Positions 33,431-52,691 of a stretch of 64,000 nucleotides of DNA are shown here, piece by piece. The translations under genes were made by a program, and so were the position numbers. How positions within the stretch are numbered: position 1 is the first letter of the stretch; every line of letters starts with the position of its first letter. Source of the DNA: Gemmobacter aquaticus (GTDB taxonomy: Bacteria; Pseudomonadota; Alphaproteobacteria; Rhodobacterales; Rhodobacteraceae). The notes beneath the pieces are model-generated. The model saw nothing but the letters and a program-made list of their open reading frames with translations, did no database searches and was not told the origin of the DNA. The stretch spans positions 82,406 to 146,405 of the forward strand of contig NZ_VOAK01000027.1 of assembly GCF_007859075.1 (NCBI RefSeq), written 5' to 3'.

Positions 33431-33507
33431 GGACTATCCTTTACTCTGGCTATCGATCTGGCCCAATTACCTCGGGGTGCGGGGGCAAAGCCCCCATGTC
33501 TGCCGTC

Positions 33508-34863: not shown

Positions 34864-34914
34864 GGTGTCCTCCTGCGTCGGCCTGAAGCCCCGATCGCTT
34901 GAGTCGCATTAATA

Positions 34915-34928: not shown

Positions 34929-34978
34929 CAAGTCAAGATAAACCTGCATCAGGGTCGCAACTTTGCGAAAGGCAGGCC

Positions 34979-35617
34979 ATGAGCGGATCCATCGTGCTGC
35001 ATGACTATTGGCGCTCATCCTCGGCCTATCGGGTCCGGATCGCGCTGAACCTGCTTGGGCTTGGCTATCGGTCGCGCCCGGTCGATCTGGTCGCAGGTGA
35101 CCAGCGCGGGGCCGAGAACCTTGCGGCCAATCCCCAAGGCTTGGTGCCGGTGCTGGAGATTGACGGCCAGCGGCTGACGCAATCGCTTGCGATCATCGAA
35201 TATCTTGATGAAACGCGCGCGGCAGGCTTTCTGCCTGATGAGCCGGCCGAACGGGCGCGTGCGCGTGCGCTGGCCCATGCTATCGCGATGGAAATTCAGC
35301 CCGTCTGCAACCTTCGCGTCGCGCGCCACGCCGTCAGCCTTGGCGGAGCGGCCACGATGGATGGCTGGATGGCCCATTTCATCGCCCTGGGCCTTGAGGG
35401 CGTCGAAGGACTGCTCTTGCAGCGCCCTGCCCTGCCCTTCTGTCATGGCGCGCGGCCCGGCCTTGCCGATATCTGCCTTGTGCCGCAGGTCTATAATGCG
35501 CGCCGATGGGGCGTCGATCTTTCGGCATTCCCGCGTCTGGCGGCCATTGCCGAACGGGCGGAGGCATTGCCTGCCTTTGCCGCGGCCCACCCGGATCGCG
35601 TAAAGCCGGACAGGTGA
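34979..35617 (+). CDS. maiA: maleylacetoacetate isomerase (GST zeta class)
   Basis: A 212-residue glutathione transferase of the zeta class with LHDYWRSSSAYRVRIALNLLGL (the SSxSxRVRIAL signature, Ser13-Ser15), NPQGLVPVLEIDGQ and LTQSLAIIEYLDE in the thioredoxin fold, and the C-terminal helical domain. It isomerises maleylacetoacetate to fumarylacetoacetate with glutathione. ATG 34979 is chosen over an earlier ATG at 34916 that overlaps the operator. It is divergent from hmgA and followed by a marR gene 51 bases on. In-pathway position between HmgA and FahA is complete here. Confidence 0.93.
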   Translation: MSGSIVLHDYWRSSSAYRVRIALNLLGLGYRSRPVDLVAGDQRGAENLAANPQGLVPVLEIDGQRLTQSLAIIEYLDETRAAGFLPDEPAERARARALAHAIAMEIQPVCNLRVARHAVSLGGAATMDGWMAHFIALGLEGVEGLLLQRPALPFCHGARPGLADICLVPQVYNARRWGVDLSAFPRLAAIAERAEALPAFAAAHPDRVKPDR

Positions 35618-35668
35618 CATCAGGGGGCCTCTGTGGCAGGGTCCGACCGGCGGAAAGGACCGACAGAC

Positions 35669-36133
35669 ATGGACAAGCCCGGCACCCAGGATTTCGACCT
35701 TGAAGGCTTCCTGCCCTACCTGCTCAATCAGGCGGCCGAGGCCACGTCGAAGTCCTTTCACGATACCTACAAGGCCGCCTATGGCATGACGCGCACGCAG
35801 TGGCGGGTGCTTGCCAACCTCGGCAAGTTCGGCTCGATGACCGCGCGCGACATCTGCACCATCAGCCATATCGAAAAGACCAAGGTCAGCCGCGCCGTCG
35901 CCGCGTTGGAGGCAGAGGGCCTGCTTTCGCGCAGCATCAGCCCGCAGGACCGCAGGGCCGAGATTCTGTGCCTGACCGAGCGCGGCCGCGTGGTCTTTGC
36001 CGATCTCGGCCAGCGCGCCATCGACTATGATCGCAGCCTGCGCGCCAAGATCGGGCCAGAAATCGCGGCGCAGCTGGATGATCTGCTGCGCCGGATCATT
36101 GCCGAGGGCAACCCCGACGGTGACGAGGATTAG
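35669..36133 (+). CDS. MarR family regulator of the homogentisate operons
   Basis: A 154-residue winged-helix protein. The helix-turn-helix lies in MTARDICTISHIEKTKVSRAVAALEAEGLLSRS and is followed by the wing DRRAEILCLTERGR, typical of MarR. It is in the maiA transcription unit, 51 bases downstream. It converges with hppD with a 4-base overlap of stop codons. It very likely represses hmgA and maiA through the nearby palindrome. It may be equivalent to a MarR-type HmgR of other alphaproteobacteria, but that name is not firm. Confidence 0.85.
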   Translation: MDKPGTQDFDLEGFLPYLLNQAAEATSKSFHDTYKAAYGMTRTQWRVLANLGKFGSMTARDICTISHIEKTKVSRAVAALEAEGLLSRSISPQDRRAEILCLTERGRVVFADLGQRAIDYDRSLRAKIGPEIAAQLDDLLRRIIAEGNPDGDED

Positions 36134-37227
36134 GACGCCTTCAGGACGCCACGCTCGATCTGGTCTTGCTCGATGCTTTCAAAGAGCGCGCGGAAGTTGC
36201 CCTCTCCGAACCCGTCATCCCCTTTGCGCTGGATGAACTCGAAGAAGATCGGGCCAATCACCGTTTTGGAGAAGATCTGCAGCAGGATGCGGGTCTCGCC
36301 CCCGTCGACGACACCCTCTCCATCGATCAGGATGCCGTGCTTCGCCAGCGCCTCCAGCGGCTCTTCATGGCCAGCCACGCGGGTGCGGGACAGCTCATAA
36401 TAGGTCATCGGCGGCTTCGGCATGAACTTGAGCCCGCGATCGGCAATCGCGTCTGTGCTGGCATAGATGTTGTCGCACCCCACGGCGATGTGCTGGATGC
36501 CCTCACCCTTGTAGCGCTTCAGATATTCGACGATCTGCCCGGTTTCGCCCCGATCCTCGTTGATCGGAATACGAATGCGACCGCAAGGCGAGGTCAGCGC
36601 CCGGCTGAAGAGGCCAGTATACTTCCCCTCGATGTCGAAAAAGCGGATCTGACGAAAGTTGAACAGGCGGCTGTAGAAGTCGAACCAGACATCCATATTG
36701 CCCTTGAAGACATTATGGGTCAGGTGGTCGAGGTAGTGGAAGCCCACGCCTGCCGGTTTGGGGGCAGCGACAAACTCGAACTCGGCCGCATAGGGGTTGG
36801 CGCCCGCGCCGTAGACATCGGTAAAGTAGATGAGCGAGCCGCCGATCCCCACGATCGCCGGCCAGTCGAGCGTCTTGTCGCCGGCCGTATAGGGTGTCGC
36901 ACCATTCTTGACCGCGTGATCGAAGGCATGCTGTGCATCGACCACCCGCCATGCCATGGCAGGCGCGCAGGGCCCATGCTCTTCGACAAAGCGGCGGGCA
37001 TGGCTGCCGGGCTCATCGGTCAGCACATAGGTGATATCGCCCTGCTGCCACAGCTCAACCGCCTTGGTGCGGTGACGGGCGACACGTTCAAAGCCCATTC
37101 GGGTGAACAGCGCCCGCGCCTCTTCGGGGTTCGGATGGGCAAACTCCACGAACTCGAAACCATCGGTTCCGGCGGGGTTCGCCGGGCTGATCGTGGCGCG
37201 CGGGGCGTCATGCGGAAAGGGTCCCAT
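36130..37227 (-). CDS. hppD: 4-hydroxyphenylpyruvate dioxygenase
   Basis: A 365-residue alpha-ketoacid-type dioxygenase making homogentisate from 4-hydroxyphenylpyruvate with iron and oxygen. The vicinal oxygen chelate fold and the iron ligands are visible: YLDHLTHNVFKG (His), GIQHIAVGCDNI (His) and PIFFEFIQRKGDDGFGEGNF (Glu), the last being the diagnostic block. Length is typical. It is transcribed alone, divergent from an Lrp-type gene 138 bases away and convergent with marR. It links tyrosine catabolism to the hmgA-fahA-maiA genes. Lrp-type regulation is likely. Confidence 0.96.
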   Translation of the reverse strand: MGPFPHDAPRATISPANPAGTDGFEFVEFAHPNPEEARALFTRMGFERVARHRTKAVELWQQGDITYVLTDEPGSHARRFVEEHGPCAPAMAWRVVDAQHAFDHAVKNGATPYTAGDKTLDWPAIVGIGGSLIYFTDVYGAGANPYAAEFEFVAAPKPAGVGFHYLDHLTHNVFKGNMDVWFDFYSRLFNFRQIRFFDIEGKYTGLFSRALTSPCGRIRIPINEDRGETGQIVEYLKRYKGEGIQHIAVGCDNIYASTDAIADRGLKFMPKPPMTYYELSRTRVAGHEEPLEALAKHGILIDGEGVVDGGETRILLQIFSKTVIGPIFFEFIQRKGDDGFGEGNFRALFESIEQDQIERGVLKAS

Positions 37228-37820: not shown

Positions 37821-38101
37821 TGCGCACTGCAGCGCGAGCCAGTCTGCCAACATAACGCCGCCCTGCTGTTCGGCCCATGACGCGAGATCACCCGGGTGCA
37901 TGCTTCGGTCCGTGGTCGGCTCCTGGGCCGCCACAAGTCCGGACCACGGCATCACCTGAACCGCGTCCCTGGGGCGACCTCATGGGCCTGCAATCCGGTC
38001 GACGACAGGTCGGAACTCCAAGCTACAGGCCGCATCGGGCGTCTGAATGTCGGCTCGAAAGTCGACATCATCAACCCACATTCGATACAGGATCACTGCG
38101 A

Positions 38102-38266
38102 GGCATCTGCCTGAATCCTTACAGGTTCATGACCCTTGCTGATGCGGCAGAGAAGCTGGAGGCTTGGCGCAGATACCACAATGAGGAACGGCCACACGGC
38201 GCGATTGGCCAATAGTTCCCGATCATGCTGACGAAATCGGGGGGCGTCACCAGCCCGTCACCCTGA
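38102..38266 (+). pseudogene. IS3 family transposase fragment (C terminus)
   Basis: In frame from 38102 the translation includes NPYRFMTLADAAEKLEAWRRYHNEERPHGAIGQ, the conserved end of the IS3 orfB integrase domain. A TAG at 38213-38215 interrupts it, then the frame continues FPIMLTKSGGVTSPSP, also typical of these transposases, to a TGA at 38264-38266. The rest of the element is gone, so this is a remnant. Confidence 0.75.
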
Positions 38267-39539: not shown

Positions 39540-40667
39540 TCACGATCGGCAAGCGCTCAGAACGGGCCGTGGAACTGAATGGAAGACGGCGGCAACCGCA
39601 GCGATGCTTGCCAGCGACCATCCCGCACTCCAGCTCAAAGCGGCGAGGCCGTGGTACATCGTTAACAGACGCAGAACCGTGGCCAACTGTACCAGTGCGA
39701 AGGCCATCCCAATCAAAGCCCCCAGTTGCAACGCGCCAGGCACGCGACGCATCCAGGCCCTTGCCATGACTGCAAGGACCATGCTTCCCATCAGCCCCAT
39801 GGTCAGGGCATGGCTTGCAGTGGGCAGGCCAAGACCGACTGCGGGACTGAGCGACATGCTGACAAGGGCCAGACCAAGCGGAAGCCAGCACCAGGCGATC
39901 ACCAATACGGCGAGATCGGCCTGCCTTTCGCGAAGACCTCTGGCGAGAGGCCAGGCGATCACCCGCGCGATCTGGCCCAGGGCGGCTAGCAGAAGAAGCA
40001 ATCCTGTCCATCGCGCCCCAAGATCCGCCAGATGCACCATTAAGGCCAATCCCAAGGGAAGGCTTGCCGCAGTTGCCAGCGGCAGCAAGGACACACGGAT
40101 CGGCGTCTTGTCACCCGCCCTCGCATGCAGGAAGGCAGGGATGATACGGCCTCCGACCAGTGCCACCAGAAGTGCGATGCCCAGAACGGCAGTCAAGCCA
40201 TCGGCATCCAGCCGCATGCGGACGGCAAAAAGCACCATAATCAGCGGAGCCAACGCCATCGGAAGCCGCTTCCAGACCCGCGCAGTGATAACGGGCAGGG
40301 CCAAAGCGACGGCCAGTCCGATGGGGTAAAGGCACTGCCCGACAAGGGCTGGCGCGTCCGGCATGCAGGGCCCACCGAGGAGCCTTCCCAGACCCCACGC
40401 CAGCACCAGCCCCTGCGTGGCCGTTGGTCCGTGCCCGATGCACGCGCGGTCGCGCCCAGCCTGCATCAGCCAATGGGGGAGCGCCGTCAACAGGTAGCCG
40501 CCCACCGCCGCCCCTGCAACGCCCAGCACAAGTTCTTGCCGATGCCACACAACGGGATCGCAGACAAACCCCGGCACGAGCCAGACCAGCGGCACCAAAG
40601 CGGCCCATAGTGATGCCAGCAGGAACAGCGAAAGATGAGGTGCGCGCCAGAGGCCCCGGACAGCCAT
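39540..40667 (-). CDS. nnrS: NnrS family membrane protein
   Basis: A 375-residue polytopic protein with about 10-12 membrane segments. The motif WHRQELVLGVAGAAVGGYLLTALPHW is the diagnostic NnrS block, and VGGRIIPAF and TASHALTMGLMGSMVLAVMARA follow. NnrS is a haem- and copper-containing membrane protein linked to protection from nitric oxide and to denitrification. It is the last gene of the ubiD-ubiX-dnrN-nnrS operon, 9 bases after dnrN. Length is typical. Confidence 0.88.
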   Translation of the reverse strand: MAVRGLWRAPHLSLFLLASLWAALVPLVWLVPGFVCDPVVWHRQELVLGVAGAAVGGYLLTALPHWLMQAGRDRACIGHGPTATQGLVLAWGLGRLLGGPCMPDAPALVGQCLYPIGLAVALALPVITARVWKRLPMALAPLIMVLFAVRMRLDADGLTAVLGIALLVALVGGRIIPAFLHARAGDKTPIRVSLLPLATAASLPLGLALMVHLADLGARWTGLLLLLAALGQIARVIAWPLARGLRERQADLAVLVIAWCWLPLGLALVSMSLSPAVGLGLPTASHALTMGLMGSMVLAVMARAWMRRVPGALQLGALIGMAFALVQLATVLRLLTMYHGLAALSWSAGWSLASIAAVAAVFHSVPRPVLSACRS

Positions 40668-40676
40668 GGTGACGGG

Positions 40677-41336
40677 TCAAACAGCTTCGAAGCGCGGGGT
40701 GAGGACCGTGTTTTCCAAGTGAATGTGGGCGATCAGATCCTCGGTGAACTTGGCGAGACCCGTATAGAGCGCAGACCAGGACCGACAGGCACCGTCTGGT
40801 AAAGTCAGGCCGCGCGTTGTGTGCTCAATGCCGCGAAGAAGAACCGAGACTTCATCATGTTCTTGCCGCATCGCACTTATCAGCTGCACCATCGTTGGAT
40901 GCCCGCCCTGCCTCATCATCGGAAAGAGAGCCTGCTCTTGCCTGATCATGTGACTTTCCAGCACGTCGCGCAGCGCGAGAAGTCTCTCGGTCAGTCCGTT
41001 GGGCGCCTCGTCGTGGTCGCCATGGACGAATTCAACCTTCTGCGCCAGCGGGATCAGCCAGTCGAGTTCGGAGCGGTGGGTGTCGTGGTAGCGCGTCACC
41101 AAGTGGGCAATCAGCGGCAGTGTCTCTTGCGGCGCGTCGTGGCCCGCAGATATGGCCAAGGCACGAAGTTCATCCAGCAAAGTCTCCGCCGCAAGTCCAT
41201 GCTTTGCGCTCGCGTCGGTGACAGACAACTTCCCACCGCAGCAGAAGCTGATCCCATGCCGGCGGAACACTTCGGCGGCACCGGGCAAGTCGGATGCAAT
41301 GTCGCCAACAAGCGCGGAAGGGGACAGGTCGGTCAT
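40677..41336 (-). CDS. dnrN: di-iron protein for Fe-S cluster repair (RIC/YtfE/DnrN)
   Basis: A 219-residue protein. The N-terminal ScdA_N domain has FRRHGISFCCGGK, with the Cys pair conserved. The C-terminal hemerythrin-like domain carries the di-iron ligands in RYHDTHRSELDWL, LESHMIRQEQALFPM, MRQEHDEV and IAHIHLENTVLTP. RIC proteins repair iron-sulfur clusters damaged by nitric oxide. Its start overlaps the ubiX stop by 4 bases (ATGA), so it is coupled to the ubiquinone decarboxylase genes, and nnrS follows. Confidence 0.92.
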   Translation of the reverse strand: MTDLSPSALVGDIASDLPGAAEVFRRHGISFCCGGKLSVTDASAKHGLAAETLLDELRALAISAGHDAPQETLPLIAHLVTRYHDTHRSELDWLIPLAQKVEFVHGDHDEAPNGLTERLLALRDVLESHMIRQEQALFPMMRQGGHPTMVQLISAMRQEHDEVSVLLRGIEHTTRGLTLPDGACRSWSALYTGLAKFTEDLIAHIHLENTVLTPRFEAV

Positions 41337-41911
41337 GGGGCAAATCCTTCAGTTGGAACCCATGCGCGCGCTTGAGGCGGCGCAATTTGCAGAAGATCGA
41401 CCGCGCGCGCGGCGATCTGGGCCGTGATCTGCGCGACTGTATCGGGACGCAGATAGAACGCGGGGACCGGGGGCATGACGATGCCCCCCATTTCGGTCAC
41501 GGCAGCCATGTTGCGCAGATGCGCCAGCGTCAGCGGCGCCTCGCGCGCAAGCAGGACCAGCGGACGACGCTCTTTCAACTGCACGCTTGCCGAGCGTGTC
41601 AGCAGGTTGTCATCCAACCCATGCGCGATGGCCGCAAGACTGCGCATGGAGCAGGGAGCTATGATCATGCCATGGACGGGAAACGAGCCTGAGGCGATGG
41701 CTGCACCAAGGTCGATCACCGAATGCAGTCGGCAAGACAGCGTAACCAGTTCGTGGCGTGCCGCGGGCCCGATCTCAAGCGCCAGAGTGCGCTCGGCCAT
41801 GGCAGAGAGAACCAGTTCCACGGTTGCGCCAGCCGTTTTCAGCGCGCGGGCACAATCCAGCGCCAGCGCCGCGCCTGAGGCACCGGATACGCCAAGGATG
41901 ATACGAGTCAT
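41333..41911 (-). CDS. ubiX: flavin prenyltransferase UbiX family
   Basis: A 192-residue flavoprotein-family enzyme with RIILGVSGASGAALALDCARAL, LSAMAERTL, MIIAPCSMRSLAAIAHGLDDNLLTR and MPPVPAFYLRP, all typical of UbiX/Pad1. It makes prenylated FMN, the cofactor of UbiD. ATG 41911 overlaps the ubiD stop (ATGA) and its stop overlaps dnrN, so the operon is tightly coupled. Because of the ubiTUV neighbours it probably serves ubiquinone synthesis, though a phenolic acid decarboxylase role is possible. Confidence 0.94.
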   Translation of the reverse strand: MTRIILGVSGASGAALALDCARALKTAGATVELVLSAMAERTLALEIGPAARHELVTLSCRLHSVIDLGAAIASGSFPVHGMIIAPCSMRSLAAIAHGLDDNLLTRSASVQLKERRPLVLLAREAPLTLAHLRNMAAVTEMGGIVMPPVPAFYLRPDTVAQITAQIAARAVDLLQIAPPQARAWVPTEGFAP

Positions 41912-43392
41912 GCCAGCACCCGCTGCAGCAAGCATTCGGCCCGAGCCTCATGTTCAGGGTCAATCTGCATGACACGGCCCCATTCGCGGTTCGTCTCAGC
42001 ACCGATCTTGGTGGTCGCGTCGATTCCAAGCTTGCCCGCCAATCCCTCGCGCGGGGAGGCGAAGTCGAGGTAATCCATCGGCGTTCGGTCGAGCACCATG
42101 ACGTCCCGCACAGGGTCCATACGCGTCGCCATGGCCCAGACCACATCGTCCCAGGAGCGAGGGTTGATATCGCGGTCCACCACGATGATGGTCTTGGTGT
42201 AGCTGAACTGCGTCAACATGCCCCAAAGCGCCATCATCACTCGCCGCGCCTGCCCTGGATAGCGCTTGTCGATCTGCACCACCGCCATCCGGTAGGAGCA
42301 GGCGGCAGCGGGAAGCCAAAGATCGATGACTTCAGGGACCTGTGCGCGGATCACCGGCAAGGCAAGGGAGTTGAACACCTCTCCGATGACCGATGGCTCG
42401 TCAGGTGGGCGGCCGGTGACGGTGGACAGATACAGGGGATCCTGACGATGGGTGATGGTCGAAACACGCATCACTGGGAACGGCTCGACCGAATTGTAAT
42501 AGCCAGTGTGGTCGCCAAACGGGCCTTCCGACGCTGTCTCCCCGGGGTGGACCCAGCCCTCCAGAATGACCTCGGCATGGGCAGGCACCAGCAGCGGCAC
42601 AGTCTTTGCCGCCACAAGCTCTGCCCGTGCGCCGCGCAGAACGCCCGAGAACGCGAGCTCCGAGACGGTCTCTGGCAGGGGCAGTGCTGCTGAAAGGAGA
42701 GTCGCCGGGTCGCAACCAAGCGCGATGGCAACTGGCATCGGCTCGTTCGCGTGCAACCAGCTGCAGTAATGTGCCGCCCCGCCTCGATGCGCGAGCCAGC
42801 GCAGGATCAGTCGGTCGGGGCCAAGCACCTGCGCCCGATAAACACCGAGGTTGTAACGCGACAGCTGGCCCCTGTCTGACGCGTGCGGTCGGGTGACAAC
42901 GACGGGCCAGGTGATGAGCGGCCCGGCATCACCGGACCATGGCGTTTGTGCCGGGATCAGGGATAAATCTGGCGGCGCAGCCACCTCTTGCACCGGACCA
43001 CGTCGAAGAAGCTTGGGGCGACTTTGCAGCGCAGCGCGCAACACCGGCCAGCGCGACAGGGCATCGCGCATCCCCTCTACCGGGGAAGGACTGCGCAGGG
43101 CGGCAAGAAACTCTCCGAAGGTGGGCACCTGATCCAGCGTCAGCCCCATCCCCGCCGCCACTCGTTCGGACGTGCCGAACAGGTTTGTGATGACCGGCAT
43201 CTGGGCCCGCCGCTCGCCTTGGCGTGCATCGTCAAAGCGAAGTATCGGCCCGCCCAACCGCAGAGCTGCGAGTTGCACCGCAGTCATCTCGTGTCGCAGT
43301 TGCACGGGTTCGGCTATATGTGCCAGTTCACCCTGCCCTTCCGCATAGGCCAGAAAGGCGCGAAGGTCGGGAAAGACTGGCAGGCTACGCAT
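41908..43392 (-). CDS. ubiD: UbiD family decarboxylase
   Basis: A 494-residue prFMN-dependent decarboxylase. Motifs include RYNLGVYRAQVLGPDRLILRW (shown here in part), HYCSWLHANEPMPVAIALG, ASEGPFGDHTGYY with the acidic catalytic block, and TKTIIVVDRDINPRSWDDVVWA. UbiD removes the carboxyl group of the polyprenyl-hydroxybenzoate precursor. ATG 43392 has AAGGAAG upstream; ATG 43428 is a weaker alternative. First gene of the operon, divergent from ubiT, with the FNR-type box 52 bases upstream. Other UbiD family members decarboxylate phenolic acids, but the surrounding genes favour quinone synthesis. Confidence 0.92.
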   Translation of the reverse strand: MRSLPVFPDLRAFLAYAEGQGELAHIAEPVQLRHEMTAVQLAALRLGGPILRFDDARQGERRAQMPVITNLFGTSERVAAGMGLTLDQVPTFGEFLAALRSPSPVEGMRDALSRWPVLRAALQSRPKLLRRGPVQEVAAPPDLSLIPAQTPWSGDAGPLITWPVVVTRPHASDRGQLSRYNLGVYRAQVLGPDRLILRWLAHRGGAAHYCSWLHANEPMPVAIALGCDPATLLSAALPLPETVSELAFSGVLRGARAELVAAKTVPLLVPAHAEVILEGWVHPGETASEGPFGDHTGYYNSVEPFPVMRVSTITHRQDPLYLSTVTGRPPDEPSVIGEVFNSLALPVIRAQVPEVIDLWLPAAACSYRMAVVQIDKRYPGQARRVMMALWGMLTQFSYTKTIIVVDRDINPRSWDDVVWAMATRMDPVRDVMVLDRTPMDYLDFASPREGLAGKLGIDATTKIGAETNREWGRVMQIDPEHEARAECLLQRVLA

Positions 43393-43443
43393 TGGTCGGG
43401 ACTTCCTTTTCCGACCGGATAACCTCACCCGACGGGCCGCGAC

Positions 43444-43457
43444 TTGACTATCGTCAA
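43444..43457. promoter_or_regulatory. FNR/Dnr-type box between ubiD and ubiT
   Basis: TTGAC-TATC-GTCAA is a perfect inverted repeat fitting the FNR/FnrL/Dnr pattern TTGAN-N4-NTCAA. It lies about 52 bases from the ubiD start and 58 from the ubiT start, in the middle of a divergent promoter. This fits low-oxygen or nitric-oxide control of both operons. The exact regulator cannot be told from the site. Confidence 0.75.
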
Positions 43458-43514
43458 TCCTGCCGCCGAGGCTTTTGCCTAAGTGGGGGAGGTCAGCTGT
43501 TCAGGGACAAACCG

Positions 43515-44048
43515 ATGCCTGCTTTGTTGCCGCGCCTGCCGCGAGCGTTCCAGCTCGTCGCGATGCCGCTTCCTGTGGTGCCGCTAAGCCTGTTACTGGG
43601 CGCCGTCACCCGCCGCATGGCCCGTACGCATCCGGTGATGCTGCGCCGCTTGGGCGCCTACGCCGGGAAGCGGTTTCTGATTGACCCTACAGACCTGCCC
43701 TTTGTTCTGCTTTTGCAGCCCCTCGCCTCGCAGATGACTGCGCACCGCCGGTCGAGCCCGCCCGAACACGATGCCCGCATAGCCGGGCCGCTCTCTGCGT
43801 TCCTCGCGATGATGCATGGGGCCGAGGATGGAGACGCGCTCTTTTTCTCGCGTGACCTGACAGTTGAAGGGGACACCGCCGCCCTCCTTGCGCTGCGCAA
43901 CGCGATCGACGACGCCGAACTGGACCTGACCGAAGAGTTTGCCGCTCTCTCGGGTCCGCTAGCCGCCCCGCTGCGCCTTGCGCTTGCGCGGGCAGAACGC
44001 GCCACCGGGCTTGCGCTGCACCGGATTGATATCGGGGTCTTGGGATGA
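43515..44048 (+). CDS. ubiT: SCP2-domain protein UbiT
   Basis: A 177-residue protein with an SCP2 sterol-carrier-like fold: RFLIDPTDLPFVLLLQPL, then HDARIAGPLSAFLAMMHGAEDGDALFFSRDLTVEGDTAALLALRNAIDDAEL. The acidic ending of this block is conserved in UbiT (YhbT). UbiT is the lipid-binding accessory factor for oxygen-independent ubiquinone synthesis and works with UbiU and UbiV. It overlaps ubiU by 4 bases, ATGA. ATG 43515 is the first reasonable start downstream of the FNR-type box. Confidence 0.9.
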   Translation: MPALLPRLPRAFQLVAMPLPVVPLSLLLGAVTRRMARTHPVMLRRLGAYAGKRFLIDPTDLPFVLLLQPLASQMTAHRRSSPPEHDARIAGPLSAFLAMMHGAEDGDALFFSRDLTVEGDTAALLALRNAIDDAELDLTEEFAALSGPLAAPLRLALARAERATGLALHRIDIGVLG

Positions 44049-45025
44049 TGGAACTGGTCTGCCCCGCGGGTACCCCCGCAGCATTGCGGGCCGCAGTCGA
44101 TGCGGGTGCGCATTCGGTCTATTGCGGATTTGCCGATGAAACCAATGCCCGGAACTTTCCCGGATTGAATTTCTCCCCCGACGATATGGCACAGGCGGTG
44201 GCCTACGCGCATGCGAGGGGCGCCAAGGTCCTTGTCGCCATCAACACCTTTCCGCGTGCCGGGGCCGAGCCCATCTGGCACCGTGCTTTGTCATGCGCGG
44301 AACAGTCGGGGGTGGATGCCGTGATTCTGGCTGACATCGGGCTTCTGGCCCATGCGGCCGCGCGTCATCCAAAGCTCCGCCGCCACCTGTCGGTGCAAGC
44401 GGCGGCGGCAAATCCTGATGCGATCAACCTTTATGCTGAAGCCTTCGGGGTCCGCCGTGTTGTCCTGCCCCGCGTGCTGACGGTCGAGGAGATATCCGCA
44501 ATCAATCGCGAGGTGGAGGTCGAGACAGAGGTCTTCGTCTTCGGCGGCCTCTGCGTCATGGCTGAGGGGCGCTGTTCGCTTTCGTCCTACGCCACAGGCC
44601 AGTCACCCAACATGAATGGTGTCTGCTCACCGGCCGAGCATGTCGCCTACTCCGAGGAAGGCCATGAACTGGCCGCAAGACTGGGCGGCTTTACCATCCA
44701 CCGCACGCCGAAGGGCGCGCCAGCGCCCTACCCTACGCTCTGCAAGGGCTGTTTCACTTCCGGGCCTCAGACCGGGCATATCTTCGAAGACCCGGTTTCT
44801 CTGGACGCGACCCGCCTTATTCCCCGGCTTGCCAAGGCAGGTGTGTCAGCATTGAAGATCGAGGGCAGACAACGCAGCCGCTCCTATGTCGCCCAGGTCG
44901 TCCGCGCCTTTCGCGCAGCAGTCGAAGCGCAGGCGGCTGGCGATCCTATGCCGGAAGGCGCGCTCGCGCGGCTGACCGAAGGGCAGGCCGCCACGACTGG
45001 TGCCTATGCCAAGAGATGGAGATGA
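44045..45025 (+). CDS. ubiU: 4Fe-4S hydroxylase subunit UbiU (U32 peptidase family)
   Basis: A 326-residue U32-family protein. The Fe-S cysteines are Cys170, Cys177, Cys194 and Cys233 (in GGLCVMAEGRCSLSS, NGVCSPAEH and TLCKGCF), with spacings that match E. coli UbiU. UbiU and UbiV together hydroxylate the ubiquinone ring without oxygen, using prephenate as oxygen donor. Length is typical. It overlaps ubiT by 4 bases and ubiV by several bases, so the three are coupled. Confidence 0.94.
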   Translation: MMELVCPAGTPAALRAAVDAGAHSVYCGFADETNARNFPGLNFSPDDMAQAVAYAHARGAKVLVAINTFPRAGAEPIWHRALSCAEQSGVDAVILADIGLLAHAAARHPKLRRHLSVQAAAANPDAINLYAEAFGVRRVVLPRVLTVEEISAINREVEVETEVFVFGGLCVMAEGRCSLSSYATGQSPNMNGVCSPAEHVAYSEEGHELAARLGGFTIHRTPKGAPAPYPTLCKGCFTSGPQTGHIFEDPVSLDATRLIPRLAKAGVSALKIEGRQRSRSYVAQVVRAFRAAVEAQAAGDPMPEGALARLTEGQAATTGAYAKRWR

Positions 45026-45927
45026 GGATGGACCTGACCGTTGGGCCGAATTTCTTCTTCTGGCCGTCTGATACCGTCCGGGAATTCTACGGCAGGCTGT
45101 CACGCACGACTGTCGCACGCGTTGTACTGGGAGAGCTTGTTTGCTCAAAGCGCCTGCCGTTCTGGCAGGAGGAGATCCCTACCGCCGTTGAAGCCCTGAT
45201 CGCCGCCGGGAAAGAGGTGGCGGTCACTTCACTCGCGCTGATTACCCTGAAGCGCGAACGCAATCTGACAGCTGACCTCATTGACATCGGCCTTCCGGTC
45301 GAGGTCAACGATCTTTCCGCCCTGGCGCATGTTCCGCTTGGCACACCGTTCTGGGTTGGCCCGCTGGTGAATGTCTACAACGAAGGCACCCTCAACTGGC
45401 TTATCCGTCGTGGCGCAACACGGATCTGTCTGCCGCCAGAACTGCCACTGGCCTCCGTTGCCGTACTTGCGAAAATGGGGCGTGATGAGGGGGTTGCGGT
45501 CGAAGTCTGGGGCCATGGGCGCCTGCCGCTGGCAATCTCGGGCCGCTGCTATCACGCCCGGCTTCACGACCGGGCCAAGGACTCTTGCCAGTTCGTCTGC
45601 GGTGACGATCCCGACGGCAGAGAGGTGGAGACATTGGACGGCCAGCCCTTTCTGGCGGTAAACGGGGTGCAGACGCTCAGTCAGTCCACCGCAAGCGTGG
45701 CGCATCAGGTTCAGGTACTGCGCGAGGTCGGGGTCGCCGCCCTGCGTCTGTCGCCGCAGTCAAAGGGGTTCACCACCATCTGCGATGTTTGGAGCCAGCA
45801 CCTCGCAGGAAGGCTGACTGCACCCGAACTTGTCGCGAAGCTGCGACCAACCGCCCCCGCAGGCAGGCTCTCCGACGGCTTTCTCGCTGGCACTGTCGGT
45901 GCTGCATGGTCTGGTGGCCGCGCCTGA
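45016..45927 (+). CDS. ubiV: 4Fe-4S hydroxylase subunit UbiV (U32 peptidase family)
   Basis: A 303-residue partner of UbiU. Cys43, Cys178, Cys191 and Cys195 (LVCSKR, SGRCYHAR, KDSCQFVCGDD) reproduce the spacing of E. coli UbiV. It starts TVGPNFFFWPSDTVREFYG, and has NDLSALAHVPLGTPFWVGPLVNVYNEGTLNWL as two linked family blocks. Possible starts are ATG 45016, 45022 or 45028, all within the end of ubiU. The ubiU-ubiV complex makes ubiquinone hydroxylation possible under anoxia. Confidence 0.93.
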   Translation: MEMRMDLTVGPNFFFWPSDTVREFYGRLSRTTVARVVLGELVCSKRLPFWQEEIPTAVEALIAAGKEVAVTSLALITLKRERNLTADLIDIGLPVEVNDLSALAHVPLGTPFWVGPLVNVYNEGTLNWLIRRGATRICLPPELPLASVAVLAKMGRDEGVAVEVWGHGRLPLAISGRCYHARLHDRAKDSCQFVCGDDPDGREVETLDGQPFLAVNGVQTLSQSTASVAHQVQVLREVGVAALRLSPQSKGFTTICDVWSQHLAGRLTAPELVAKLRPTAPAGRLSDGFLAGTVGAAWSGGRA

Positions 45928-45993: not shown

Positions 45994-46608
45994 TCACGCC
46001 TGTGACTCCGATGCAATCATTGAGTGCAGCAGCCCCGCGTCAGTGAGTTGCTCCATGTCCGGCAGGTCGCGCAAGCTCTCGATCCCGAAGGCCACCAGAA
46101 ACGTCTCGGTGGTAACAAAGGTATAGGGCGCGCCGCGGCGGGGCTCGCGGGGGCCGGTTGCGATCAGGTTCTGCCCGGCCAGACGTCCGATCAGGTCGCG
46201 GCTGACCTCTGTCCCGAAGATCTCCTTCAACCCGTCCCGGCTGATCGGCTGGTGGAAGGCAATCGCCGCGAGTACGGCCATGTCGAACTCGGACAGGTTC
46301 AGGGCCTGCCCGCCCGGATCTGCGGCCGCGCGGATGGCCGGGGCATAGGCAGGGCGTGTCCGCAACATCCAGCTGCCCGCCACTCGGGCAATCTCGAAGG
46401 AGCGACCTTCGAGATCGATCCTCAGATCCTCGATCAGAAGGTCGACCGAAACCCCTTGCCCCACCACCTTTGCCAGATCGTCCCGCGCGACCGGCGTGGC
46501 GGAGGCAAAGAGCACCGCCTCGATCCGGCGCATCCATTCGCGCCAGCGCAGATCGGAGGGCAGATCGGCCAGGTCGCGGTCAAGCCCGGGGTCCTCGCGC
46601 GCGCCCAT
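45994..46608 (-). CDS. ScpB-like SMC-Scp complex subunit (plasmid paralogue)
   Basis: A 204-residue winged-helix protein of the ScpB type: RIEAVLFASATPVARDDLAKVVG, LNLSEFDMAVLAAIAFHQPISRDGLKEIFG, and LIGRLAGQNLIATGPREPRRGAPYTFVTTETFL. ScpB binds SMC and ScpA in chromosome condensation. No smc or scpA is nearby, so this is a solitary paralogue. It follows the DUF1403 gene by 2 bases, and with it and the recombinase forms a group next to repABC. A role in plasmid structure or segregation is possible but not established. Confidence 0.82.
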   Translation of the reverse strand: MGAREDPGLDRDLADLPSDLRWREWMRRIEAVLFASATPVARDDLAKVVGQGVSVDLLIEDLRIDLEGRSFEIARVAGSWMLRTRPAYAPAIRAAADPGGQALNLSEFDMAVLAAIAFHQPISRDGLKEIFGTEVSRDLIGRLAGQNLIATGPREPRRGAPYTFVTTETFLVAFGIESLRDLPDMEQLTDAGLLHSMIASESQA

Positions 46609-46610
46609 CG

Positions 46611-47513
46611 TCAGAGCCCGTAGAGGCGGAAGCTGTCCCGCCCGGTCAACTCGCGCAAGGCGCCCAGCTCCACCAGCCGGTCGCAGAGCCGCCGGGCTGC
46701 GCGGTCCGACAAGGTGCTGTGCACGTCGTTCGCCAAAGCAACCGGCGTCAGCGCGTCCTCGGTGAGGAAGAGCTCCACCGCCCGCGCCGCGCCCTTGGCG
46801 CGCAGCTTCGGTGTCACCGCCCGCAGCCGAGCGGCCCGGCGGGCCAGATCGGCGGCCAGCGGCACGGCGAACCGGACCCCGGTCGCCACGGCTCGGTGAC
46901 AGGCCAGCCGGAGGTCTTCGCCTGTGCGCGCCACATCCCGCGGCTTCAGCGCCAGGGACAGCAGCGGCAGGACATGATCCAGGCCGATCGAGGCCGACAG
47001 GACCGCATCTGCAAGGATGAAGGCCGCGGTCTCGGCGCGTGAGGTGTCGGCCAGAGCGGCCTCGATCACCTGCGCCGCCCGGTCAACCGGCGTTGACCCG
47101 CTGGCATCAAGGCTGAGGGCGATGCGCGAGGACGCGGCGCCCTCCAACATGCGGCCAAGATGTGTGACCGAGATCGGCCGCGCCACGACCCGCGACCATT
47201 GTCGAAAGATCCGGCCTGCCGGTCCGGGATCATCACCCGCCCTTGTCAGATACGCCGCATCGCGCAACGCCCCCTGCCCTTCCCGACGCCCCGCAATCGC
47301 TGCGCAGGTTTCGGCTGCGGCCAGCGCCAGCCGCTGGCGCCACAGCGCCACGGGCAGATCGGCGGATGCGGCGACCAGCATCAGATGCGCCAGGGCGGCC
47401 CCGGACCGGAACGCTGCGCCCTCAAGGGTTTCGTCGGAGGCAGACCCGATCCAGCCCGGCAGCGGGGGGAGCGCCGGCAAAGTGTCGCGGGACTGGGGAC
47501 AGGATCGGGTCAT
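46611..47513 (-). CDS. DUF1403 family protein
   Basis: A 300-residue protein I recognise as DUF1403. It begins LPPLPGWIGSASDETLEGAAFRSGAALAHLMLVA and ends RLCDRLVELGALRELTGRDSFRLYGL, a winged-helix-like tail. The middle is Ala/Leu-rich helical. The function is not known. It precedes the ScpB-like gene with a 2-base gap, probably one operon. It is divergent from the recombinase gene by about 125 bases. Confidence 0.75.
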   Translation of the reverse strand: MTRSCPQSRDTLPALPPLPGWIGSASDETLEGAAFRSGAALAHLMLVAASADLPVALWRQRLALAAAETCAAIAGRREGQGALRDAAYLTRAGDDPGPAGRIFRQWSRVVARPISVTHLGRMLEGAASSRIALSLDASGSTPVDRAAQVIEAALADTSRAETAAFILADAVLSASIGLDHVLPLLSLALKPRDVARTGEDLRLACHRAVATGVRFAVPLAADLARRAARLRAVTPKLRAKGAARAVELFLTEDALTPVALANDVHSTLSDRAARRLCDRLVELGALRELTGRDSFRLYGL

Positions 47514-49123: not shown

Positions 49124-50308
49124 ATGAGCAGAGCCGACACACAAGAAGACCTGAACGCTGTTATCCGTCAGCATTCCGAGTTGCTGGCGGCGCAGCTGCA
49201 TTCTCAACGTGAGAGCCTGTTCCCTCCCGACGCATCAAAGTCTATGCGCAAATTCACTTCGGGAGAAGCGGCAGCTCTTCTGGGTGTCAACGACTCATAT
49301 CTCAGAAAGCTCCACCTGGACGGCAAAGGGCCCTCTCCGGAAGTTTCTTCTGGGAACCGTCGCCACTACTCGGCTGAGGATATTCATAACCTACGTATTT
49401 TGTTGGAGAAAACCGCCAGAAAGCCGGGTGACTATCTTCCTGGTCGTCGTGCTGGCGATCATCTTCAGATCATCGGCGTTATGAACTTCAAGGGCGGTAG
49501 TGGAAAAACGACGTCCGCGGCACATCTCGCACAGCGGCTGGCTCTGACAGGTTACCGTGTGCTGGCGATCGATCTCGACCCTCAGGCATCGCTGACAGCC
49601 CTGCACGGGGTTCAACCAGAGTTCGACCTGCTGGATGGCGGTACGCTCTACGACGCAATTCGGTACGAAGATCCGGTTCCGATTTCTAACATCATCCGCA
49701 GGACTTACATCCCCAACCTTGATCTGATCCCCGGCAACCTTGAACTCATGGAGTTCGAGCATGAAACGCCTCGGGCCCTCGCCCAGGGCAATGCCGGCCT
49801 GTTCTTCTTTCGGGTAAAGGAGGCACTGGCCCAGGTCGATGATCAATACGATGTCGTTGTGATCGACTGCCCTCCACAACTCGGGTTTCTCACGATGTCC
49901 GCCCTATCGGCCGCAACCGGTGTTCTCGTGACGATCCATCCCGAGATGCTCGACGTGATGTCGATGAGCCAGTTCCTTCGGATGACAGCTGACCTGATGG
50001 ACGTCATCGCCGACAGCGGGGCCGACATGTCGCATGACTGGATGAGATATCTTTTGACCCGCTACGAGCCGACAGATGCACCACAGAACCGCATCGTCGC
50101 GTTCTTGCGTACCATGTACGGTGACAAGGTCCTGAACGCGCCGATGCTTAAGTCGACCGCGATATCCGATGCGGGACTGACCAAACAGACCCTCTATGAG
50201 GTCGAACGTAGCGCTTTCACCCGTACGACCTATGACCGGGCCGTTGAAAGCTTGAACGCAGTTAACGACGAGATCGCCCAACTCATTCAGAAGACGTGGG
50301 GGCGCTGA
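49124..50308 (+). CDS. repA: plasmid partition ATPase RepA (ParA type)
   Basis: A 394-residue ParA-type ATPase of repABC replicons. The N-terminal winged helix with FTSGEAAALLGVNDSYLRKLHLDGKGP is followed by the deviant Walker A KGGSGKTT (residues 123-130), IDLDPQASLTALHG, and VVIDCPPQLGFLTMSAL. RepA powers segregation and represses the operon. Its stop overlaps the repB start in TGATG. The promoter is expected in the 200 bases upstream. The gene is lower in GC than its neighbours, usual for rep genes. Confidence 0.96.
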   Translation: MSRADTQEDLNAVIRQHSELLAAQLHSQRESLFPPDASKSMRKFTSGEAAALLGVNDSYLRKLHLDGKGPSPEVSSGNRRHYSAEDIHNLRILLEKTARKPGDYLPGRRAGDHLQIIGVMNFKGGSGKTTSAAHLAQRLALTGYRVLAIDLDPQASLTALHGVQPEFDLLDGGTLYDAIRYEDPVPISNIIRRTYIPNLDLIPGNLELMEFEHETPRALAQGNAGLFFFRVKEALAQVDDQYDVVVIDCPPQLGFLTMSALSAATGVLVTIHPEMLDVMSMSQFLRMTADLMDVIADSGADMSHDWMRYLLTRYEPTDAPQNRIVAFLRTMYGDKVLNAPMLKSTAISDAGLTKQTLYEVERSAFTRTTYDRAVESLNAVNDEIAQLIQKTWGR

Positions 50309-51300
50309 TGACCGACAGCAAAAAGAAGCGCATGTCCATGCTCGACAATCTCGCAGCTGCGGGGGCGCATCCCGCGGCGGGTAGCATGATGTCGAGCAAC
50401 CGGGCCCTGCGCTCCGCGCGAGATGCGGTAGATGCTCACCATGTGTGGGAAATCGATCCGGCAGAGATCGAAGACGAGCGGTATACAGATCGCCTCGATC
50501 CCCAAGATGTGCATGATCTGCGTGCTTCAATCGAGCAGAATGGACAGATTGTTCCGATCCTGGTTCGTCGTCACCCCACCGAGACGAACCGTTATCTCCT
50601 TGTCTATGGTCGCAGACGCCTAGAGGCCATCCGCGGCTCCGACAAGGTCAGCAAGGTCCGGGCGCTTATCGCAAAATTGGATGACACGGCGGCGCTTCGC
50701 GCCCAAGTGTCCGAAAACACCGGAAGGCGTGACCTCAGTTACATCGAGCGCGCCCTCTTCGCGAGGGAACTGCTCGATAGCGGTTTTGGTTCTCAGGCGC
50801 AGATTGCCGAAGTACTGAACGTGACACGTTCGGCGGTATCGATGTCGATTTCGGTCGCCAACGCGGTTGGTGCAGCCTTGGCCCATGCCATCGGACCAGC
50901 CCATGGTGTCGGCCGCCCCCGCTGGGAGGCTTTGGCAAAAGAGCTTTCCGATTTCGGTATCGATCAAGATGAACTTTGCCGCATCGCCATTGACGTTCGC
51001 ACCAAGGCAGGTGCCAGTGAACAGGTCGTGGATGAGCCCCAACTCGATCCATCCGTTTTGGCCTTTGACGCCGTCGCACGGCACCTGAAAAAGAGCGCCA
51101 GCCAATCCCGCGGTCAAAAGCCGAAGACTAAGGCAACGGCGCTTTTGATCGATGGCATGCCAGTAGGCACCATCAAGCGATCACGCCAGGCGGTTCGGTT
51201 GGACCTGACACATGTGGACGTTGCCTTTGCAGAGTGGCTCGACGTTCGTGCGCAGGAGGTCCTGGAAGAACTTCACGGACGCTGGAAGCGCGAGACGTGA
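50308..51300 (+). CDS. repB: plasmid partition protein RepB (ParB type)
   Basis: A 330-residue ParB/Spo0J-type protein: RLDPQDVHDLRASIEQNGQIVPILVRRHP is the ParB N domain, and YLLVYGRRRLEAI the GxRR block. The helix-turn-helix is SQAQIAEVLNVTRSAVSMSISVA (near SGFGSQAQIAEVLNVTRSAV). It should bind parS at 52693 and 52738. The start ATG 50308 overlaps the repA stop (TGATG). RepB and RepA form the partition complex of the repABC module. Confidence 0.94.
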   Translation: MTDSKKKRMSMLDNLAAAGAHPAAGSMMSSNRALRSARDAVDAHHVWEIDPAEIEDERYTDRLDPQDVHDLRASIEQNGQIVPILVRRHPTETNRYLLVYGRRRLEAIRGSDKVSKVRALIAKLDDTAALRAQVSENTGRRDLSYIERALFARELLDSGFGSQAQIAEVLNVTRSAVSMSISVANAVGAALAHAIGPAHGVGRPRWEALAKELSDFGIDQDELCRIAIDVRTKAGASEQVVDEPQLDPSVLAFDAVARHLKKSASQSRGQKPKTKATALLIDGMPVGTIKRSRQAVRLDLTHVDVAFAEWLDVRAQEVLEELHGRWKRET

Positions 51301-51342
51301 GGAGAGGTAGAGCAACAATAAAAAGGAGGCACGGTACAGGCT

Positions 51343-51383
51343 AAAGAAAAGGTCCCGCAAAGCTTGCGCTCCACGAGACCCCG
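51343..51383 (-). ncRNA. candidate antisense ctRNA (incompatibility RNA) of repABC
   Basis: On the minus strand, between repB and repC, a GGTCTCGT arm (51380-51373) pairs with GCGGGACC (51358-51351). It is followed by TTTTCTTT, an intrinsic terminator. Upstream on the same strand TGGACC and TAAGAT (51390-51395) with 16 bases between give a sigma-70-like promoter. This predicts an RNA of about 41 bases opposite the repC leader, the place of the counter-transcribed RNA that limits RepC in repABC plasmids. Ends are estimates. Confidence 0.6.
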
Positions 51384-51482
51384 ACTTTGATCTTAGCACT
51401 TTCAAGGTAGTGGTCCAGCGCGCAAACCGCAAGTCATATGTGATTCGCGGTACGACTTTTCTGCGCCTTCGTGAATAACATC

Positions 51483-52691
51483 ATGAACTATACACCGATT
51501 TCGCCGTTTATGCGGCCGGTCTCGTATGCCCATTTGCGTGTGATCGAGCGACCGGAGGGGGCTGTTCTCGGCAAGCCAATCAACAAGTGGGAAGTTCTCC
51601 GTGAGTTGTCCAAGTCGCAAGCGGCCTTTGGGGTCTCTGAGCGCGATCTGACTGTCCTGCAGGGGCTTCTCAGTTTTTTCCCGGACGATGTGCTTGGCGG
51701 TAACTCCGAAATGGTCGTGTTCCCGTCCAACAAGGCGCTCTGTGAGCGACTGAACGGCATGCCCTGCTCGACGATGCGTCGCCATCTAGTCCGTCTCGTC
51801 GAGGCTGGCTTGCTTATTCGGCGCGACAGCCCCAACGGCAAACGCTATGTCCGCAAGCATGGCGAAGAGCGCGTGACCTTCGGCTTCGATCTCTCCCCCC
51901 TCCACTGCCGAGCTGAGGAGATTGCACGAGCCGCAGAGGCTGTGCGTGAGGCCGAGGACCGTGTGCGCCGCACCAGAGAGGTCGTGAGCCTGATGCGGCG
52001 CGACGTCGCTGCTCTGGCGGAGTTCGGCGAGGATATCCGGCCTGGGCTCGGCCTTTGGGACCAGCTTCGCGATACGGCCGTTCTTGCAGCCAGGGCTTTG
52101 CGCCGTAAGCTGTCACTCGAGGACCTGACGTCCCTTCGCGCGGATCTTGAGGTGCTTCTCGATCAGGCCCGTAACGTCATTGATGGACCTGAAACAAAAG
52201 AAATGAGCACCAATGATGCCCATTTCGAGCGTCACTATCATAATTCAAATAAAGACTCCAAAGATCTTGAACCTGCCTTGGAAAAAGGCTGGGTGGCGGC
52301 CGATGCGCTAGAAGCGGATGCGAACGAGCTTGAGGCTGTTCAGGAACTCGACACAAGACCGGTGCCGAAAATCCCGCTCCATCTGGTGATTGCAGGCTGT
52401 CCGGCCATCAAGACCTACTACCAAGGCGATATCCGCCACTGGCACCAGCTTTTCGATGCGGCTTGCCATGTACGTCCGGCAATGGGGATCAGTGTCGCAG
52501 CTTGGGAAGATGCCCTGCGTTTCATGGGACCAGAACAAGCGTCGATCGTGCTTGTCGCGATGCTGGAACGCTTCGCTGATATCAGATCCCCCGGCGGATA
52601 CCTCCGCGCGCTAACGTCCAAGGCGGCGGCGGGCGAGTTCTCCTGCGGACCGATGGTCATGGCTCTGATCGCTCGACGGAACGCGGCGTAA
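51483..52691 (+). CDS. repC: replication initiator RepC
   Basis: A 402-residue repABC initiator beginning MNYTPISPFMRPVSYAHL, the typical start. It continues with GVSERDLTVLQGLLSFFPDD, VVFPSNKALCERLNGMPCSTMRRHLVRLVEAGL (a winged helix), and SPGGYLRALTSKAAAGEFSCGPMVMALI at the end. A GTG at 51471 in frame is an alternative start. RepC initiates at an origin inside its own gene. The 172-base gap to repB holds the antisense RNA. Confidence 0.95.
   Translation: MNYTPISPFMRPVSYAHLRVIERPEGAVLGKPINKWEVLRELSKSQAAFGVSERDLTVLQGLLSFFPDDVLGGNSEMVVFPSNKALCERLNGMPCSTMRRHLVRLVEAGLLIRRDSPNGKRYVRKHGEERVTFGFDLSPLHCRAEEIARAAEAVREAEDRVRRTREVVSLMRRDVAALAEFGEDIRPGLGLWDQLRDTAVLAARALRRKLSLEDLTSLRADLEVLLDQARNVIDGPETKEMSTNDAHFERHYHNSNKDSKDLEPALEKGWVAADALEADANELEAVQELDTRPVPKIPLHLVIAGCPAIKTYYQGDIRHWHQLFDAACHVRPAMGISVAAWEDALRFMGPEQASIVLVAMLERFADIRSPGGYLRALTSKAAAGEFSCGPMVMALIARRNAA
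52186..52280. other. AT-rich tract in repC, candidate oriV
   Basis: Within repC, a locally AT-rich stretch (including AAACAAAAGAAATGAGC and CATAATTCAAATAAAGAC) stands out from the surrounding high-GC coding sequence. In repABC plasmids the replication origin lies in an AT-rich part of repC, so this is the best candidate. Inferred from position and composition only. Confidence 0.4.

Follow-up and report, generated by a model that had tools for sequence, protein, structure and literature searches.

How can a bacterium keep making ubiquinone without oxygen when denitrification releases nitric oxide (NO)? Denitrifiers must do so by means of iron-sulfur (Fe-S) hydroxylases, in a cell that is itself producing NO. 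This question is raised by a 64,000-nucleotide stretch of Gemmobacter aquaticus DNA (GCF_007859075.1, contig NZ_VOAK01000027.1, here C27; positions 82,406-146,405 of the forward strand), which will be called the window. Within it, seven adjacent genes (39540-45927) form two divergent strings, nnrS-dnrN-ubiX-ubiD on the minus strand and ubiT-ubiU-ubiV on the plus strand. A preliminary description of this DNA had placed the seven genes at these coordinates and on these strands, and all of them match the families to which they had been assigned. The locus is a real, conserved, and largely understood module for anoxic ubiquinone synthesis, present here in a variant that includes NO-response genes in one of its gene strings and that occurs on plasmid-like replicons. 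The core formed by ubiXD and the divergent ubiTUV is neither unique to this strain nor new. The element that is new here is the recurrent join of this core to NnrS and to RIC, the Fe-S cluster repair protein family to which DnrN belongs; a search of open PMC papers, with subscription journals mostly outside its reach, found no description of ric/dnrN in a ubiXD operon.

A conserved core and a recurrent join

When genomes were scanned with UbiU, the best 80 of 568 confirmed stretches were taken as the loci for comparison. According to tblastn, 76 of the 78 loci in which the placement of ubiD could be judged (L016 and L028 end too close) have it divergent to ubiT, with UbiD cut short in two of the 76 (L021 and L071). 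Two Roseibium loci (L048 and L049) have no ubiD beside ubiTUV; in the genome of L048 (G025, Roseibium suaedae), a UbiD is found elsewhere, 18 kb from nirK and 6 kb from nnrS. Whole genomes were compared in a set of 48, consisting of the window's own and 47 of the 48 isolate genomes with a locus (without that of L058). UbiD exceeds its cut-off in 45 of them, and G007, G011, and G038 have a second copy that does so. A chance meeting of ubiDX and ubiTUV in this strain can thus be dismissed, since their join is the rule in its relatives.

The join to the NO genes recurs as well. RIC lies beside ubiX in 17 of 70 judged loci, the other ten of the 80 being left unjudged because of contig ends; one of the 17, L035, showed no ubiX between its RIC and ubiD. 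NnrS is found at most 6.2 kb from ubiU in at least 23 of the 80. The strict seven-gene order and orientation is present in six of the 80 loci (L003, L005, L007, L013, L014, and L015), and L010 has the same order plus one extra open reading frame (ORF). In the Paracoccus form (L020, L022, L031, and a P. kondratievae plasmid), RIC occupies the same place and NnrS follows ubiV. A check for the same order in other genomes had been proposed in the preliminary description; the six loci, together with a Defluviimonas plasmid, rule out an order peculiar to this strain. The record of L014 is titled as an Acidovorax metagenome-assembled genome; its locus groups with Rhodobacterales UbiUV and RIC, and it is probably a mis-binned contig.

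The linkage of RIC and NnrS that had been pointed out earlier is also far above chance. Using a RIC threshold of 140 bits, set after the scores had been seen and omitting five weaker matches of at most 34 bits, RIC is present in 19 of the 20 genomes of the 48-genome set that have any RIC match. RIC lies no more than 2.5 kb from a UbiD in 14 of these 19, where 0.03 would be expected. Both NnrS and UbiD occur in 46 genomes, and in 19 of these (counting one 35-bit fragment, in G010) an NnrS lies no more than 6 kb from a UbiD, where 0.25 would be expected. The expected values treat placement in 4.2 Mb as even and take no account of kinship.

The history of the join can be followed in part. On the UbiUV tree, the adjacency of RIC requires 8 changes, 6 of which are forced by strongly supported branches, with gains and losses indistinguishable. 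Most of the ubiX-linked RICs belong to a single, modestly supported group (83/75) of the RIC tree, whose 25 rows comprise 22 with the link and 3 without it. Paracoccus denitrificans and Paracoccus MKU1 have two RICs each, and the second represents a lineage apart from the ubi-linked one (98/95). NnrS occurs at the locus in four positions or orientations, on either side and from several clades; among NnrS genes on the dnrN side in operon orientation, ten of eleven form one clade (support 97). Outside Rhodobacterales, RIC directly follows ubiV in Rhizobium SSA_523, and in the betaproteobacterium Ideonella a Crp/Fnr gene separates it from the preceding ubiUVT. Most simply, these patterns would reflect one main join within Rhodobacterales, followed by moves and losses, with separate joins elsewhere.

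The genes and their products

The genes within each string are tightly packed. Four-base ATGA overlaps are present at four junctions (ubiD/ubiX, ubiX/dnrN, ubiT/ubiU, and ubiU/ubiV), and dnrN and nnrS are 9 bases apart, each junction being as it had first been described. The ubiX ORF opens at 41935, and its overlap with ubiD indicates the start given in Table 1. Because of the four overlaps and the 9-base gap, two transcripts with translational coupling are suggested.

UbiT, UbiU, and UbiV each exceed their curated cut-offs and are co-located, and UbiD and UbiX likewise exceed the cut-offs of their families, TIGR00148 and TIGR00421. UbiD remains below the E. coli-type equivalog cut-off NF008175 (533.7 vs 788 bits, nearly full length). 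UbiU residues C170, C177, C194, and C233 correspond to C169, C176, C193, and C232 of E. coli and are kept in all 80 aligned rows (E. coli, the window, and 78 loci). Similarly, UbiV residues C41, C176, C189, and C193 correspond to C39, C180, C193, and C197 of E. coli and are kept in all 73 aligned rows (E. coli, the window, and 71 loci), loci yielding fewer than 200 residues having been excluded from both alignments. These are the eight cysteines that bind the [4Fe-4S] clusters of E. coli UbiU and UbiV, where the clusters are reported to be essential (PMC6747719). The claim that the cysteine patterns match those of the E. coli 4Fe-4S proteins thus holds for every ligand.

For the two NO-response genes, the family names given at the outset stand, and the assignment within each family is looser than those names implied. 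DnrN has ScdA_N and hemerythrin domains across its full length; it scores 199 bits over its full length against a RIC cut-off (TIGR03652) of 204.7, just under it, and is best described as RIC-type rather than a strict equivalog. DnrN reads CCGGK where the displayed E. coli YtfE chain 7bhc reads AAGGK, and the histidine and glutamate stretches align; we take these to hold the iron-binding residues. NnrS of the locus belongs to a divergent clade, has no NCBIfam match, and has no relative in PDB up to E = 1. The genome's other NnrS, which adjoins norC on contig C2, scores 330 bits. That the NnrS of the locus is this canonical, nor-side NnrS was considered and is excluded by the scores (154 vs 330 bits) and by the separate, divergent clade.

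UbiD and UbiX in anoxic ubiquinone synthesis

In Rhodobacter capsulatus, deletions of ubiD-X and of ubiU-V are each reported to allow wild-type growth with oxygen and none without it; the ubiD-X deletion accumulates decaprenyl-hydroxybenzoate, and with oxygen it is UbiN that carries out a decarboxylating hydroxylation (PMC10626278). A ubiXDTUV set has likewise been described in Hyphomicrobium denitrificans, where it is co-regulated with denitrification (PMC12423496).

The same partnership is visible in a family sample of 120 genomes (requested completeness at least 95%), in which UbiU was counted at 365 bits or more and UbiD at 400 bits or more, thresholds that were set after the scores had been seen, at clear score gaps. 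UbiU is present in 25 genomes and UbiD in 11; ten of the 11 UbiD genomes also have UbiU, always adjoining, and only 1 of the 95 genomes lacking UbiU has such a UbiD (Fisher 2.7e-7). Nine further genomes have weaker UbiD-family matches only (135 to 338 bits), and if the cut-off of the UbiD family itself (244.85 bits) is applied, the numbers become 11 of 25 genomes with UbiU vs 5 of 95 without. Thus, in this sample, a UbiD of at least 400 bits is found almost exclusively at the anoxic locus (10/11). The ten genomes in which UbiD adjoins UbiU are exactly the ten whose UbiU scores about 500 bits. Such a UbiD is absent from the other 15 of the 25 UbiU-bearing genomes, in which UbiU scores 366 to 463 bits and of which G160 has a weaker UbiD away from the locus; therefore, another anoxic decarboxylase is expected there. 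The Thioclava and Azospirillum plasmids and the two Roseibium loci also have UbiTUV with no such UbiD beside it. Given the R. capsulatus deletions as reported and the 10 of 11 co-occurrences, the reading of the locus as one for anoxic ubiquinone is supported, with UbiD and UbiX belonging to it more tightly than had been supposed.

The shared promoter region

The two strings had been described as diverging from one promoter region, and this is what is found: the 122-base gap between ubiD and ubiT holds one perfect FNR-type palindrome, TTGACTATCGTCAA. Boxes of this pattern (TTGAY-N4-RTCAA) occur twice in the window, where 0.09 would be expected. The centre of the box is separated by 58.5 bases from the start of ubiD and by 64.5 from that of ubiT, so that both promoters might be activated from this single predicted site, at a spacing usual for activators. 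An FNR-type box is present in the gap of 68 of 75 loci in which both starts could be placed, while equal windows drawn at random from the same loci (1000 draws) gave a mean of 0.94 boxes and a maximum of 5.

Related sites have been described elsewhere. In Rhodobacter sphaeroides, an FnrL peak is reported on TTGATgtagGTCAA between RSP0466-4 and RSP0467-8 (ubiD), both of which are marked as activated; according to the same paper, regulators of the FNR, FixK, and DNR groups differ little in the sites they recognise (PMC2908626). FNR sites are stated to precede ubiTUV in 1362 of 1566 triplets across Pseudomonadota (PMC11707229), and FNR control of the E. coli ubiTUV pathway has been reported as demonstrated (PMC10470549).

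A different signal is seen in Hyphomicrobiales. Eight plasmid loci with a divergent ubiD were viewed from this order, and in six of them (Chelatococcus, Shinella, Agrobacterium, Sinorhizobium meliloti, Mesorhizobium, and Rhizobium SSA_523) the gap contains a TTG-N8-CAA dyad whose CG half-site is NnrR-like, the NnrR consensus being given as TTGcgnnnncgCAA (PMC1274295). Of the remaining two, Ensifer has another dyad and Labrenzia an FNR-type box. A small gene lies between ubiD and ubiT in Agrobacterium, as does another in Mesorhizobium, and the gap there adjoins only one of the two genes. Judging from these motifs, the promoter of these six loci with its TTGCG/CGCAA half-sites, as opposed to the FNR-type promoter of Rhodobacterales, may represent an oxygen switch that was changed to an NO switch.

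Published expression data point the same way. In Bradyrhizobium diazoefficiens, an nnrR mutant is listed with changes of -10.3 fold for a sterol-binding protein, bll7628, and -15 fold for a U32 peptidase, bll7627, in a paper whose main text does not contain the word ubiquinone (PMC6710368). By family, these two are likely UbiT and UbiU. In an isolate with CBBG8 locus tags, denitrifying conditions are reported to induce ubiX 24-fold, ubiD 31-fold, and nnrS 61-fold (PMC12883736). The anoxic ubiquinone genes are therefore likely NO-responsive in some rhizobia, which supports a physiological tie between the two processes. S. meliloti SMa1289 is listed as an NO- and NnrR-induced gene (PMC3147055). 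This gene presumably lies near the UbiU locus of the S. meliloti 1021 plasmid pSymA and might belong to ubiTUV.

The replicon and its surroundings

Contig C27 is 146,405 bases long and ends where the window ends. ParA, ParB/RepB, and RepC matches lie 3 to 7 kb past ubiV (Table 1), in agreement with the plasmid-like replicon recognized at the start. The host had also been taken for a denitrifier, and its genome does contain nirS (505.7 bits), nor genes, and NosD/NosZ matches, all on contig C2; across the whole of C27, no query of the denitrification panel scores above 60 bits except the RIC and NnrS of the locus itself. The genome has one UbiU, one UbiD, one RIC, and two NnrS. Because the one UbiU and the one UbiD are both on C27, the only copies found in this denitrifier sit on a plasmid-like replicon.

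Table 1. Positions in the window of the seven genes, their promoter region, and the replication module
Feature	Position	Strand	Basis
nnrS-like, divergent NnrS subfamily trailing dnrN in relatives	39540..40667	-	PF05940, 154.6 bits (gathering score 28); one clade (support 97) with nine other NnrS that share its orientation and its position on the dnrN side
dnrN / ric, di-iron Fe-S cluster repair protein, RIC/YtfE type	40677..41336	-	Hemerythrin and ScdA_N; E. coli YtfE PDB chains at 1e-46 to 3.5e-45
ubiX, flavin prenyltransferase	41333..41911	-	TIGR00421 over cut-off; junction with ubiD
ubiD, UbiD-family decarboxylase	41908..43392	-	TIGR00148, 446.6 bits; genome's only TIGR00148 match
Shared divergent promoter region, 122 bases	43393..43514		Gap between ubiD and ubiT
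Predicted FNR/DNR-type box TTGACTATCGTCAA	43444..43457	+	Perfect palindrome; conserved in relatives' gaps
ubiT, SCP2-type accessory factor	43515..44048	+	NF047962 over cut-off
ubiU, predicted [4Fe-4S] O2-independent hydroxylase subunit	44045..45025	+	NF047963 over cut-off; four ligand cysteines; genome's only UbiU
ubiV, predicted [4Fe-4S] O2-independent hydroxylase subunit	45022..45927	+	NF047965 over cut-off; four ligand cysteines
repABC-type replication/partition module (context)	49124..52691	+	ParA, ParB/RepB, and RP-C (RepC) Pfam matches

The locus is found on other plasmids as well. UbiU relatives at E 1e-40 or better are present in 170 of 72,556 plasmid records, a few of which exceed 4 Mb and may be chromosomes. 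Eighteen plasmid regions around UbiU, chosen for different organisms, were viewed within 8-12 kb. Annotated nar, nir, nor, nos, nap, NnrS, NnrU, or RIC genes are present in 15 of them, and a P. yeei plasmid region, with a RIC seen by tblastn alone, makes a 16th; the Shinella and Ruegeria THAF33 regions have no gene of these kinds within that distance. A divergent UbiD is present in 14 of the 18, the others being those of Azospirillum, Thioclava, Cupriavidus, and Ideonella.

Two strains have a second, damaged copy. In R. capsulatus SP108, the second locus (L096, contig C170) lies on a contig with ParA, ParB, and RepC-like genes; its ubiV, which extends as far as the end of the contig, ubiU, and ubiT stand opposite fragments of ubiD and ubiX, after which come dnrN and nnrS, both open. 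Its UbiU is 86% identical to that of the window, and the locus is placed, though not strongly (support 89), in the window's clade, apart from the strain's other copy. In P. litorisediminis, the second copy (L095, contig C11) is situated between norCB and nos genes on a ParA/ParB contig; its ubiU is cut short, and no ubiV match is found in the stretch.

The neighbors of the locus in the window are of other kinds. A remnant of an IS-type integrase core (rve_3; 37877-38215, plus strand) lies just to the left of the cluster, and homogentisate-route genes (32171-37227) encode an HPPD-like protein, homogentisate 1,2-dioxygenase, a fumarylacetoacetase-like protein, a glutathione transferase, and a MarR regulator. 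ScpB-like and DUF1403 genes (45994-47513, minus strand) separate the ubi cluster from the replication module, and nothing in the other loci compared matches them at more than 60 bits.

What the join may mean

These results have led to the following model for the locus. Two divergent operons with one FNR-type box in common would together make up an oxygen-independent ubiquinone module: the ring precursor would be decarboxylated by UbiDX and hydroxylated by UbiUV. Loss of oxygen would turn on both operons here, with ubiD to nnrS forming a single transcript, and DnrN and the divergent NnrS would keep the Fe-S clusters of UbiU and UbiV working when denitrification releases NO. For the last step, RIC and NnrS would have to act on UbiU and UbiV in particular, not on Fe-S proteins throughout the cell. 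Several parts of the model are carried over by analogy: that UbiDX and UbiUV would be needed only without oxygen comes from R. capsulatus, that the clusters would be essential comes from E. coli, and that FnrL would activate both operons comes from R. sphaeroides. As a whole, we consider this explanation probable, with moderate confidence. Its anoxic ubiquinone part is close to certain. The protection of UbiU and UbiV by RIC and NnrS, which is suggested by gene arrangement, is plausible, and we would put it at an even chance.

A number of observations count against the protective role. The compared loci are related, and their counts are consequently not independent. RIC is not beside ubiX in 53 of the 70 judged loci; five of the 19 RIC genomes keep their RIC away from UbiD, and 28 of the 48 locus-bearing genomes, including that of R. 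capsulatus DSM 1710, have no RIC match of any strength. Furthermore, RIC adjacency is no more common with the nitrite reductases NirS or NirK, which are present in 10 of 14 genomes with the adjacency vs 26 of 34 without (Fisher p 0.73), and G004, G007, G016, and G042 have a UbiD-linked RIC but no full-score NirS/NirK match. Thus, the adjacency is not supported as the mark of a denitrifier, and comparing gene order with denitrification genes, as the preliminary description had proposed, showed no tie to nitrite reductase. In addition, the literature search found no study that tested UbiU or UbiV with NO.

Could the same arrangement have arisen in another way? That UbiD and UbiX act on some other aromatic acid rather than on the ubiquinone precursor might be argued from the breadth of the UbiD family and from the score under the E. 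coli equivalog cut-off, but the decaprenyl-hydroxybenzoate that accumulates in the R. capsulatus ubiD-X deletion and its lack of growth without oxygen, the ubiXDTUV set of H. denitrificans, and the co-occurrence of UbiD with UbiU in the family sample make this highly improbable. In another reading, RIC and NnrS may simply cluster here in mobile denitrification islands as members of a shared regulon, all wanted under anoxia and NO, with RIC serving Fe-S proteins at large. Such a neighborhood would explain why 16 of the 18 plasmid regions around UbiU carry denitrification or NO genes, why NnrS and NnrU and not RIC alone join the locus, why RIC in Rhodobacter SW2 adjoins nnrS and nor genes, and why RIC adjacency is not tied to Nir. 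It does not readily account for the position of RIC beside a UbiD in 14 of 19 genomes, its ATGA overlap with ubiX here, or the separate lineage of the second Paracoccus RIC, and we judge it to be a little short of an even chance.

It could also be that the order goes back to a single ancestral plasmid and was passed on by transfer, the join being devoid of functional meaning. The same order on the Defluviimonas plasmid and the degraded second copy of R. capsulatus SP108, on a repABC-type contig and grouping, if not strongly, with the window's clade, are what such hitch-hiking would leave behind. Yet NnrS has joined in four arrangements and from several clades, the UbiUV tree calls for 8 changes in RIC adjacency (6 forced), Rhizobium and Ideonella have their linked RIC on different sides of the locus from that seen here, and the seven-gene order is found on a record titled as a chromosome in QY30 (L013); we therefore regard this explanation as unlikely. 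The protection of UbiU and UbiV by RIC and NnrS may also be stated in a stronger form, in which the ubi-linked RIC would be a dedicated UbiU-UbiV maintenance factor, the seven genes a self-contained, plasmid-mobile, NO-proof cassette, and the coupling of NO to quinone synthesis a feature that recurs at the NnrR-type promoters of rhizobia. This form is rather doubtful. Nevertheless, the recurrent linkage of RIC and NnrS provides a concrete candidate for how the clusters of UbiU and UbiV survive NO, and P. denitrificans, where one RIC is ubi-linked and the other represents a different lineage, would be a suitable organism in which to test it.

Comparison with known systems

The nearest well-studied relative is the E. 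coli UbiT-UbiU-UbiV system (Pelosi 2019, PMC6747719), described as having the same three proteins and the same [4Fe-4S] cysteines. In E. coli, ubiT lies opposite ubiUV, whereas here ubiTUV is one operon divergent from ubiDX; moreover, no ubiD, ubiX, ric, or nnrS is present within the 7.5 kb viewed around the E. coli ubi genes. R. capsulatus (L032, L033; PMC10626278) has the same divergent layout but no RIC beside ubiX. The R. sphaeroides RSP0464-0468 region (PMC2908626) is described with an FnrL-bound divergent promoter, like the box here. The ubiXDTUV set of H. denitrificans (PMC12423496) likewise brings ubiX, ubiD, and ubiTUV together; as set out there, it names no ric or nnrS, and dnrN does not occur in the main text of that paper. 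Conversely, DnrN/RIC and NnrS are given as core members of NO-responsive regulons (Rodionov 2005, PMC1274295), in a paper whose main text names no ubi gene and no peptidase (0 occurrences). The two halves are united in Defluviimonas sp. SAOS-178_SWC, on a circular plasmid of 164,706 bases (NZ_CP156080.1), for which the literature seen contained no functional study. This plasmid differs in having a gene for a DnaA N-terminal domain, rather than repC, annotated beyond nnrS, but it carries the identical seven-gene order and the same 14-base box.

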